From: Laspinema palackyanum D2c | GTDB taxonomy: Bacteria; Cyanobacteriota; Cyanobacteriia; Cyanobacteriales; Laspinemataceae | Reading direction: 5' to 3' | DNA length: 64,000 bases | NCBI RefSeq assembly: GCF_025370875.1 | Contig: NZ_JAMXFD010000003.1 | Span: forward strand, 286,069-350,068 | Shown: positions 60,853-64,000 of the stretch, one piece after another | Position numbering within the stretch: the stretch's first letter is position 1 | Layout: the number at the start of each line of letters is the position of its first letter | The notes under the pieces: model-generated | What the model saw: only the letters and a program-made list of their open reading frames with translations | The model's database searches: none | Told to the model about the DNA's origin: nothing | Position numbers and translations under genes: made by a program

Positions 60853-63288
60853 TTAGGGTTGAACTTGTAGTTTAATCCGGAGGGTTCCGGAGAGAGATTG
60901 GGGGGGTTGCCAACCTTGTAACGTTTGGCGAATTTGGTCGATCGCCTCTTGATCACTTAAGGTAGAAGCGCGATCGTCCAACATCACACGCACCACTTGA
61001 CCCTGCCGAACTACAATTTCCCAAACCACCTCACCAGAAAGTCCTGGGGAGAGGGTCACAAATTGGAGTAAGTTTTCTAAATCTGCAGTCGCCTCCGCAT
61101 TTAAGTCATCCCCATCTATCACTTGAATGCGATCGCTACCTTCGGGTGATGGCATAATTCCTTCTAGGGAAGATTCATCCAGGGGTTGGACTCCCCCAGC
61201 ACCCTGACGAGCACCCCCAGACAACTGCACAGGTGAGGCAGAGGGTGGCGGTGGGGGAGAGGCGCTGGTAGTCCGACTCCGATTTCCCATTGCTGCATCT
61301 GCTTCACTTTCTGCCCCAAAAATCCCTTCGTAGCTGACGCCCTCGGGTAATTCTACGGGAACCTCAACCCGGCGAGTGGTACCATCGGGATCGACTCGGA
61401 CTTCTTCGCTGACGGCGACAAAAGCAGTGTAGGCAGACAGCAAGCGATAGGCGAGGGCGGTATTAGTTACGGCAGTTACCCCGGATGTGGTTTCTCCGTC
61501 ATACATTTGACTCATTAAGTCTTTAATTCGATGGCGACCCCACAATTGCGCGATCGCCGGGTTGCCGTCTTCCTCAAATGCCATGCGAAAGAGTTCTTCA
61601 TAGCGATCGCCATTGGCAGTAATTCCCTTCACTCGTAACTGTCCCCGGGCGCGATCGCCTTTTCGTCCAAACAAGACTAAGGGTTGTTCCGCAAACAAAT
61701 CGGGCGGTAACCCTGGATAAACTTCTGCCGGTTCTCCTCCGCCTTCCCAAGTCACTTCAATATTCGTTAAAACTGGATTATTAATCTGTCGGAAAAACCG
61801 TTCCGCCACTTCTTCTGTGGGTTCATCCTGACGAATCACTTGGGAGGTTCCTCGTCCGACTTCCGCAAGGCGATCGAGGATAAACCGATTCACTGAACTC
61901 CCCACCCCAAAGCTATATAACCGATTGCCCGGTTGTAACTTTTTTTGGACCTCGGCAATGATTTCCATATCATTGCCAATATAACCATCAGTTAATAAGA
62001 CAATACTCCGTAACCGCCCATTTTCTGCCGGGGGATAATTTAAAACGGTTTGAATTCCATTTAATAACTCCGTTCCGCCATTGGCCTGCAATTGATTAAT
62101 ATAATCGATTGCCATATTTCGATTAGCCGGAGTATTGGCTAAGGGTCGCGGAGAGAGTGCTGTAGCCGTATTGGCAAAGTCAATAATGGTAAAGGTATCA
62201 TTAAGATTGAGGCCATTGATAAAGCGACGCATCAATTCTTGAGATTTAAACAGAGGGTCACCAGATTGAGACCCGCTGGTATCCATCAGAAAGATGACAT
62301 CTTTGGGGACAATTTCATTGCGGTTGTAATCTAAGGCCGGAATTAAGTAAATGGCAAAATGTCCTCCGCGATCGTCGGATTGGGTGAGGACGGTTGCTTT
62401 GGTGCGATCGCCTGACACGCGATACCGCAAAATTAAATCCTTGTTCGGGATAGAATCCGCCTTTGCTAAGTCAATCCGAACCATTTCTCCGGCTTGAGAG
62501 GTGACAATTTGATGAGAAGGGGATTGGATATTAGAAATGGGAACTCCCGCATTAATCTCCACCGCCACGCTAATATCATGACCGGACCTTGTGCCAGGAC
62601 GAAGGACCGGAGGCGTAATCCGTGAGGCATCCGGGACTTGGTTGGTGTTAGTTGTTCCTGGGTTGGTTGGAGTGCCGGGAATATAGCGCGGACCAACGAC
62701 CATAGGGAATACAAACTCATAATTTCCCCCTTCAAAGGGGAGACTGTCACTGTAGCGAATGGTGACCTCAATTTGTTCTCCGGGTTTGATATTAGCCAGG
62801 GATTGAGTGAAAATATTAGGCCGTTCTTGTTCTAATAATCCTGCGGTTCGTCCTTGTTGCCTTGCTTCTTCATAAATGCGTTGGGCTTCTTCCCGTTGTT
62901 TGATATCCCCTTTAATGATGCGATCGCCAATTTTAATCTCCATATCATAAACCGCCGCTTCATCAGGAAGGGGGAAGACATAAATGGCTTCTAACGGTTC
63001 ATTAAAGGGATTTTGAAACCGTTGAGTTACGGCAACTTGGGAGACATTGCCATCAATCCGGGCTTTAACATCGGTATGGGTGAGAGTAAAGGCTTGTTTT
63101 TCTCCTTCTGGGGATAAAACATACAAGCCCCCTACATCTTGGGAGTCCGATGAGGTCTGGGTATTATTACTTTGAGAGAGCGTTGAACTAGGGAGCGATC
63201 GCGAATTTTCGGCTAAGGTTAAATGGGCGGCTGTTCCCACTGCTGCAACCAGGACTAAACAGGCTGGAAAAATATAGAGTAATTTCAT
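60853..63288 (-). CDS. VIT and VWA domain protein, exported
   Basis: An 811-residue protein. A signal peptide covers about residues 1-27 (LLYIFPACLVLVAAVGTAAH). A VIT domain follows (about 50-180: AFTLTHTDVKARIDGNVSQV, EAIYVFPLPDEAAVYDMEI), then a von Willebrand A domain with the metal site FLMDTSGSQSG (Asp336). A Pro/Ser/Gly-rich linker near 690-720 leads to a C-terminal domain (GEVVWEIVVRQGQVVRVML) similar to TonB/energy-coupling C-termini. Such inter-alpha-trypsin-inhibitor-like proteins are widespread in cyanobacteria, with proposed roles in surface adhesion or envelope complexes. No partner gene is adjacent. Confidence 0.92.
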   Translation of the reverse strand: MKLLYIFPACLVLVAAVGTAAHLTLAENSRSLPSSTLSQSNNTQTSSDSQDVGGLYVLSPEGEKQAFTLTHTDVKARIDGNVSQVAVTQRFQNPFNEPLEAIYVFPLPDEAAVYDMEIKIGDRIIKGDIKQREEAQRIYEEARQQGRTAGLLEQERPNIFTQSLANIKPGEQIEVTIRYSDSLPFEGGNYEFVFPMVVGPRYIPGTPTNPGTTNTNQVPDASRITPPVLRPGTRSGHDISVAVEINAGVPISNIQSPSHQIVTSQAGEMVRIDLAKADSIPNKDLILRYRVSGDRTKATVLTQSDDRGGHFAIYLIPALDYNRNEIVPKDVIFLMDTSGSQSGDPLFKSQELMRRFINGLNLNDTFTIIDFANTATALSPRPLANTPANRNMAIDYINQLQANGGTELLNGIQTVLNYPPAENGRLRSIVLLTDGYIGNDMEIIAEVQKKLQPGNRLYSFGVGSSVNRFILDRLAEVGRGTSQVIRQDEPTEEVAERFFRQINNPVLTNIEVTWEGGGEPAEVYPGLPPDLFAEQPLVLFGRKGDRARGQLRVKGITANGDRYEELFRMAFEEDGNPAIAQLWGRHRIKDLMSQMYDGETTSGVTAVTNTALAYRLLSAYTAFVAVSEEVRVDPDGTTRRVEVPVELPEGVSYEGIFGAESEADAAMGNRSRTTSASPPPPPSASPVQLSGGARQGAGGVQPLDESSLEGIMPSPEGSDRIQVIDGDDLNAEATADLENLLQFVTLSPGLSGEVVWEIVVRQGQVVRVMLDDRASTLSDQEAIDQIRQTLQGWQPPQSLSGTLRIKLQVQP

Positions 63289-63401: not shown

Positions 63402-63654
63402 ATAACGACTGAAGTCGTTACTACAAACGGGGGAAATTTAGCTTTTCTTAGTTTGTAGTGAAGAATTCATTCGTCTCTTTCCGATGGAAATAACGACTGA
63501 AGTCGTTACTACAAAGGGGGAAAATTAGGTTGTTTTAGTTCGTAGTGACGAATTCATTCGTCTCTTTCCGGATGGGGATAACGAATGAATTCGTTACTAC
63601 AAAGGGGGAAAATTAGGTTGTTTTAGTTCGTAGTGACGAATTCATTCGTCTCTT
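63402..63654. repeat. Tandem array, 88-bp unit, three copies
   Basis: Units start at 63402, 63490 and 63578. Each begins with a hairpin (AACGACTGAAGTCGTT in units 1-2, AACGAATGAATTCGTT in unit 3), then ACTACAAA, a G-run, and ends with a second hairpin ACGAATTCATTCGT (one base altered in unit 1) and CTCTTT. It lies upstream of both the VIT-VWA gene and ffh. Outside it, 63289-63952 shows no gene. Confidence 0.9.
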
Positions 63655-63952
63655 TAATTTATGCGAAGATTGCTTTTATTCATTCAATTAAAAATTAAAT
63701 TAATTCCAAAACAATCATCCCAATGCAAGAGATTTTCATCAAAATTATCCAACAGGTAAAGGGGAAACATCCCATCCTGCCGTGAACAGGAGGTTCAACG
63801 CCCTTGACACCCGAGAGTTTTCCCCCCGTCAATCCAGGCTCGAAAGAAGACCGCAATATGTTAAACTAGGCGGGTCTGACGCTGGACCAATCCCTTGCAG
63901 GGACACAACTACAACTGATTTCCTAGTCACATTCGAGAGTAACCATAAATTC

Positions 63953-64000
63953 ATGTTTGACGCGCTTGCTGAACGCTTAGAAGGAGCCTGGAAGAAACTT
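63953..64000 (+). CDS. ffh: Signal recognition particle protein Ffh, partial
   Basis: Only the first 16 codons are in the window: MFDALAERLEGAWKKL. This is the typical start of bacterial Ffh, the GTPase that binds 4.5S RNA and brings nascent membrane proteins to FtsY. The reading frame runs off the right edge. No strong ribosome site is visible before the ATG. Confidence 0.85.
   Translation, partial: MFDALAERLEGAWKKL

Follow-up and report, generated by a model that had tools for sequence, protein, structure and literature searches.

A GTAG-tagged REP array upstream of ffh and paired stem changes in its family in Laspinema

The tandem array between two divergent genes

The window, i.e. the whole stretch of 64,000 nucleotides that was analysed, closes with two divergent genes. 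A gene for a protein with VIT and VWA domains is located on the minus strand (60853-63288, start at 63288). The gene ffh (SRP54) starts on the plus strand (63953-64000), runs past the window end and was recognized by the Pfam families SRP54, SRP54_N and SRP_SPB. The gap between them has a length of 664 bp and contains the single tandem array found in the window by Tandem Repeats Finder (63402-63655, period 88, 2.9 copies, 92% matches). Thus, both the 88-bp repeats and their position upstream of ffh, as described in the first-pass annotation, were confirmed.

In the array three units of 87-88 bp (63404-63650) follow each other, every one made of two inverted copies of the same 21-nt element. 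This element is composed of GTAGT, an arm of six bases, a TTNA loop and the six-base complement of the arm. All six hairpins in the window are copies of it, located by pattern search, with alternating orientation. On the minus strand, REP 1 (63404-63424) and REP 3 (63492-63512) have the genus consensus GTAGTAACGACTTCAGTCGTT with an outer A-T pair. REP 5 (63580-63600, GTAGTAACGAATTCATTCGTT) carries the paired change that had been noted at first and has the outer A-T of the other minus-strand copies. On the plus strand, REP 2 (63455-63475, GTAGTGAAGAATTCATTCGTC), REP 4 (63542-63562, GTAGTGACGAATTCATTCGTC) and REP 6 (63630-63650, GTAGTGACGAATTCATTCGTC) are A-T variants with an outer G-C pair; REP 2 has one stem mismatch and in REP 4 all stem pairs are intact. 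The stem reported as AACGACT/AGTCGTT in units 1 and 2 and as AACGAAT/ATTCGTT in unit 3 is present in exactly this form. A second hairpin, given as ACGAATTCATTCGT, is exact in units 2 and 3, but unit 1 deviates from it by the one mismatch of REP 2. It had been missed that the hairpin of the array is a dispersed genome-wide repeat and the unit a REP pair.

GTAG stands next to a short palindrome in 6/6 copies. Within each unit the GTAG ends point inward, an arrangement termed TT doublet (PMC3733652), and spacers of 29-30 bp separate the two REPs. The element pattern (up to 3 mismatches) was matched six times in the window, against a mean of 0.12 and a largest number of 2 in 100 dinucleotide shuffles. 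As single-stranded DNA, units 1, 2 and 3 fold at -14.9, -11.2 and -16.6 kcal/mol, with z-scores of -5.0, -3.2 and -7.0. All three are inverted REP doublets foldable into one hairpin, as described for REPINs. The array is six copies of a GTAG-tagged REP, arranged as three tandem inverted pairs.

The REP family of the genus and its RAYT gene

The family pattern GTAGTRACGANTTCANTCGTY was searched in eight genomes of the genus and in 11 relatives outside it. It was matched 594 times in the window's genome (G000) and 3874 times across the eight genomes, and 0 matches were obtained with the 11 relatives. The reversed pattern, used as control, gave 0 matches everywhere. Hence, among the genomes searched, the family is confined to the genus. 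The six closest orthologs of a gene neighbouring the array have 90-92% identity and belong to records named Laspinema, Oscillatoria and Phormidium pseudopriestleyi. In 1.98 of the 7.03 Mb of the own genome 242 elements were detected at 88 sites, and 5 with the reversed sequence. Only four of the 242 are inside open reading frames of at least 200 amino acids, though such frames cover 70.6% of the 1.98 Mb. A set of 221 copies was selected for any of four perfect stems, with no more than 2 mismatches tolerated over head plus loop; in this set the four positions of GTAG were conserved in 219, 220, 221 and 219 copies. The loop positions were T in 221/221, T in 217/221, C in 197 (T in 18, A in 4, G in 2) and A in 221/221. 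These copies were chosen for a perfect stem, so the conservation of head and loop is not comparable in degree with that of the stem.

The same-strand series is a frequent arrangement of REPs at the 88 sites, with a spacing of mostly 31-37 bp, and same-strand neighbours (112) outnumber opposite-strand ones (42). At some sites the series on both sides aim at each other. Many head-to-head pairs enclose a core of about 120 bp with two more palindromes, which are variable and, as judged by eye, mostly paired. Examples are L099 (G000:C1:300130-300292), G000:C1:410348-410512, C1:476361-476522 and C2:175227-175391. BLAST with one such core yielded 11 matching pieces at 7 places including the seed, all within 160 nt of REPs. 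The REP-flanked core looks like a composite element with a REP series at each end. No Rfam family matched at gathering score in the loci L096 and L099. Furthermore, one orthologous locus in four genomes (L254, L261, L264, L258) holds from 2 to at least 10 A-T-variant REPs. The length of this series varies strongly among the relatives, like a variable-number tandem repeat.

A RAYT gene was identified on contig C42 of the window's genome (L003:1366-1908) with NF047646 REP_Tyr_transpos (92.9 bits, cut-off 80). Its protein matches TnpA-REP (PDB 4er8, E 1.3e-7). Seven REPs of the family, two of them with one mismatch, lie directly upstream of the gene around an assembly gap. The orthologs in G003 and G004 also adjoin REPs, so that the gene stands beside the family at all three loci (L003/L230, L231, L232). 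The array is thus made of REPs, and the genome that harbours it also carries a REP-RAYT pair. Thus, what defines GTAG REPs, i.e. GTAG with a palindrome, high copy number with extragenic location, and a RAYT flanked by the same REP, is found here. The motifs NHYH, WY and YIHYNP and a proline-rich N-terminus were recognized by eye in comparison with PMC6006769; judged by these motifs, the protein would belong to TnpA-REP subclass 2.8.

Two further genes were considered as partners of the REPs and rejected. An IS200-type gene (L001) is assigned to IS200/IS605 by NCBIfam, and its 2-kb locus is free of this REP family. The 3.3-kb locus L002 of a second RAYT gene is also free of REPs of the Laspinema family. 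This gene (G000:C7, L002:1474-2043; NF047646, 84.5 bits) adjoins a different repeat, translated several times as ETRFLG or QKPGFL, and perhaps forms a second RAYT-repeat pair.

For the Laspinema REP family no description was found in a search of the running text of open-licence papers. The main text of PMC12306157 names neither Laspinema nor Oscillatoria. The family is of a known kind, in a genus from which no description of it was found in these papers.

Relatives of the RAYT in G012, G013 and G014 (60-64% identity) adjoin GTAG palindromes as well. A first palindrome scan accepts mainly perfect stems and cannot show pairing; hence, a second, pairing-blind scan was done. It yielded 19 copies with an exact GTAGT head, after three matches with other heads were dropped. 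The inner arms are GGAC/GTCC (G012), GGGC/GCCC (G013) and GCGC/GCGC (G014), compared with CGAC/GTCG in Laspinema. All four inner pairs are intact in 17/19 copies and the T-T-N-A loop is present in 18/19. All six pairs are intact in only 8/19; the others have outer mismatches, two of them inner ones too. Four copies of G012 share T/G at the second pair, and others there have outer mismatches. Thus, 17/19 intact inner stems against 8/19 intact full stems indicate a drift of the inner stem in paired steps from genus to genus and a looser outer stem. Beside a fourth RAYT relative (G017, 55% identity) no REP copies were detected with either scan.

Paired and one-sided stem changes

The pair that had attracted attention in unit 3 is the innermost stem pair, p6. 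It was counted over the 3874 copies of the genus with p6 left free. C-G was found in 3748 copies, and the remaining 126 comprise 71 both-sided and 55 one-sided changes (28 and 27 on the two arms). Of the both-sided changes 55 are A-T, 15 T-A and one A/C, i.e. 70/71 are Watson-Crick pairs. Under independence about 0.2 doubles (28 x 27 / 3748) were expected. For p5, 167 both-sided and 61 one-sided changes were counted in 3976 copies; 150 of the 167 were listed, and all 150 are C-G. Doubles in the 1.98 Mb of the own genome, counted for elements with up to 4 stem differences from the consensus, are present at p1 (6 copies), p4 (7), p5 (20) and p6 (3), and all are paired. With distinct sequences counted per site, 29/29 doubles are Watson-Crick. 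After 2000 shuffles of the 3' arm, the mean was 3.4 and the maximum 11 Watson-Crick doubles, a result not to be read as a probability because related sequences are not independent. Paired change is a family-wide property of these stems, strongly so, and the change in unit 3 is one of several in the family, ordinary for such elements.

By site, the relation is reversed. One-sided p6 changes are distributed over 44 sites (55 copies) and the paired doubles, which stand in series, over only 13 (70 copies); sites were counted by eye from lists, places less than 1 kb apart being merged. Hence, unpaired changes do occur and are commoner by site. By flank homology the 13 sites collapse to five loci, so that their copies are not independent. 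These are locus A (G000:C9, G003:C37 and C130, G004:C92, G006:C371), locus B (G000:C4, G003:C205, G004:C33), locus C (G000:C16, G003:C250, G006:C160), one locus on G004:C11, and the window. The first-pass annotation had proposed that unpaired single changes at an equal rate would speak against selection on the hairpin. The answer is mixed: single changes occupy more sites, and doubles far exceed independence. With 70/71 paired doubles genus-wide, the proposed selection has support, and the earlier interpretation as a whole is partly supported.

All plus-strand REPs of the window have A-T at p6 and G-C as outer pair. The minus-strand REPs read C-G, C-G and, in unit 3, A-T, with A-T as outer pair throughout. 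Thus, the minus-strand REP of unit 3 has the inner pair seen in its inverted neighbour together with the outer pair typical of its own orientation. As the outer A-T was retained, a copied tract would be limited to 6-14 nt. The exact A-T variant is rare in the own genome (7 copies at 3 sites among 594) and already present in the array; a second independent double change is therefore unlikely. Judged from the sequence, local copying is a far likelier source of the pair than a second origin. The pair was probably taken over from the inverted REP next to it by a single short template switch or conversion, and a second independent mutation in unit 3 would then not be needed. Such copying would raise the complementarity of the whole unit; unit 3 has the lowest folding energy of the three (-16.6 kcal/mol, with units 1 and 2 at -14.9 and -11.2). 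Conversion by the second hairpin, as suggested before, gains from the rarity of the variant. It is not routine, since at locus B the inverted neighbours remain distinct in G003 and G004 (A-T on the minus strand, C-G on the plus strand). In G000 the types at this locus are mixed within one strand.

A RAYT was found in G000, G003 and G004 only, with 594, 1145 and 887 REPs. None was found in G001, G002, G005 and G007, with 123, 34, 113 and 40 REPs; the G005 assembly has 3 contigs and G001 is 92% complete. In G006 (938 REPs), likewise, none was found. This genome is 87% complete, so that gene loss and an assembly gap are indistinguishable. With G006 left out, one-sided changes at p6 amount to 13/310 copies in genomes for which no RAYT was found versus 33/2626 in RAYT-bearing ones (p = 0.0006), and at p5 to 11/359 versus 39/2666 (p = 0.04). 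In G006 they are few (p6 9/938, p5 11/951). C-G doubles at p5 are relatively commoner where no RAYT was found, with 51/359 versus 89/2666. Hence, paired variants need no present RAYT, and these doubles may be an older subfamily. The ratio of paired doubles to singles by site was 11:25 in RAYT-bearing genomes and 0:13 in the others (p = 0.02). It was not counted as support; partly collapsed to 8 loci the same contrast gave p = 0.08, and loci by flank homology would weaken it further.

The window locus was compared among the relatives, partly by eye. Six REPs are present in G004 and at least four in G003, both RAYT-bearing. In G006 there are at least two, at a contig end, in G001 one intact and one broken, and in G002, G005 and G007 remnants only. 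Orthologous sites thus differ in copy number, and tandem expansion and decay could account for the difference. A broader reading would be that REPs are abundant and mostly paired where a RAYT is present, and few, gathering unpaired changes, where it was lost. Paired variants would spread locally in same-strand series that reach ten or more copies, and new pairs would be written into inverted neighbours by short template switches. This reading is tentative and, taken as a whole, doubtful.

Interpretation and comparison with known systems

The array probably represents non-autonomous inverted REP pairs, for which RAYT-dependent amplification favours hairpin-competent copies and in which the A-T pair of unit 3 was copied from the neighbouring inverted REP. 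The RAYT encoded elsewhere in the genome is the probable processing enzyme. It would act on single-stranded REP hairpins. Copies with an unpaired stem would be amplified less, and paired variants would persist and spread. Changes on both arms would look coordinated because amplification by the RAYT keeps paired variants. The best reason for preferring selection by a RAYT is the agreement of the TTNA loop with independent biochemistry. Cleavage of the Marinomonas REP suffered severely from a stem mismatch but just moderately from a swap of the whole stem, and T-T-N-A is required in its loop (PMC8266576). With the Stenotrophomonas RAYT a stem mismatch also strongly reduces cleavage (PMC8266576). 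A perfect stem is not preferred by every RAYT: the E. coli enzyme requires a bulge, and restored pairing abolished its activity (PMC8266576).

Paired changes could also arise from mutation bias only, if template switching during replication copies one arm of the REP hairpin to the other without any selection. For RNA genes such switching has been published (PMC8794818). Many sites hold one-sided intermediates, and G005, a genome for which no RAYT was found, has at the site orthologous to the array a decayed REP whose stem is paired (GATGAC/GTCATC) although its head is broken, as judged by eye. Switching should, however, work equally well where no RAYT was found, and one-sided changes are commoner there. 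Moreover, it would not protect the GTAGT head or the T-T-N-A loop, yet both are strongly conserved. As the sole cause, template switching is regarded as rather unlikely, though still a serious rival; it can act together with RAYT-based selection. Two independent chance changes in unit 3 are hardly credible. One-sided intermediates of both kinds (A/G, C/T) do occur elsewhere in the genus, but chance predicts about 0.2 doubles (from 28 one-sided changes on one arm, 27 on the other and 3748 copies with C-G) and 71 were seen, 70 of them paired, and the rare A-T variant is also located 29 bp away within unit 3.

Pairing might instead be kept by selection on a cellular RNA, with the hairpins in the transcript leader of ffh or of the VIT/VWA gene. 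Each unit, folded as DNA, is much more stable than its shuffles, and the array lies upstream of two divergent genes. The element, however, exists in hundreds of copies and occupies 88 sites in the 1.98 Mb examined, and at this site the relatives range from six copies to decayed remnants. In the gap no Rfam family reached its gathering score; a scan with E up to 1 gave 11 weak matches, all below these scores, and a known structured RNA family was ruled out for the gap on this ground. A role as leader RNA is very improbable. A regulatory leader of ffh was dropped as main reading, given the dispersal of the element and its decay at the orthologous sites of relatives.

Taken by itself, the locus offers a modest practical lesson: its tandem repeat is a REP array of an ordinary kind. 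In numbers, the family is a strong case of stems evolving by paired changes in a DNA element, and among the related genomes some have the presumed enzyme and others seem to lack it. Should the RAYT contrast be confirmed in further genomes, it could be asked directly whether paired changes in bacterial hairpins are due to a selecting enzyme or to template switching, a question argued on RNA genes in PMC8794818. If the reading of these genomes as a natural experiment is true, stem drift by paired steps would be traceable locus by locus.

Cyanobacterial REPs of the families GTAG-12, -15 and -16 were described by Di Nocera et al. (2013, PMC3733652). Like the Laspinema element, they have a terminal GTAG and a short stem-loop, are multi-copy and mostly intergenic, and occur alone, as dimers (HH/TT) or in groups. 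IUPAC codes mark the complementary stem changes within families in that paper. The likeness of the Laspinema element (stem AACGAC/GTCGTT, TTNA loop) to these families is judged from their descriptions. The REPINs of Pseudomonas fluorescens SBW25 (Bertels and Rainey 2011, PMC3116915) are also inverted, hairpin-forming doublets in a genome with RAYTs. They form tandem clusters of units including flanks, and compensatory hairpin changes were reported to be common. The doublets of the window have GTAG inside (TT) and spacers of 29-30 bp. TnpA-REP subclass 2.8, restricted to cyanobacteria in the sample of PMC6006769, has RAYT motifs (NHYH, W[YH], YIHYNP) and flanking GTAG REPs like those found here. 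The REPs of this subclass are long, in contrast to the 6-bp stem of the Laspinema REPs (PMC6006769). REPtron Mb of Marinomonas sp. MWYL1 (PMC8266576) belongs to another organism and another RAYT group. It shares with the Laspinema element GTAG, a perfect stem and the TTNA loop, with the same critical loop positions.
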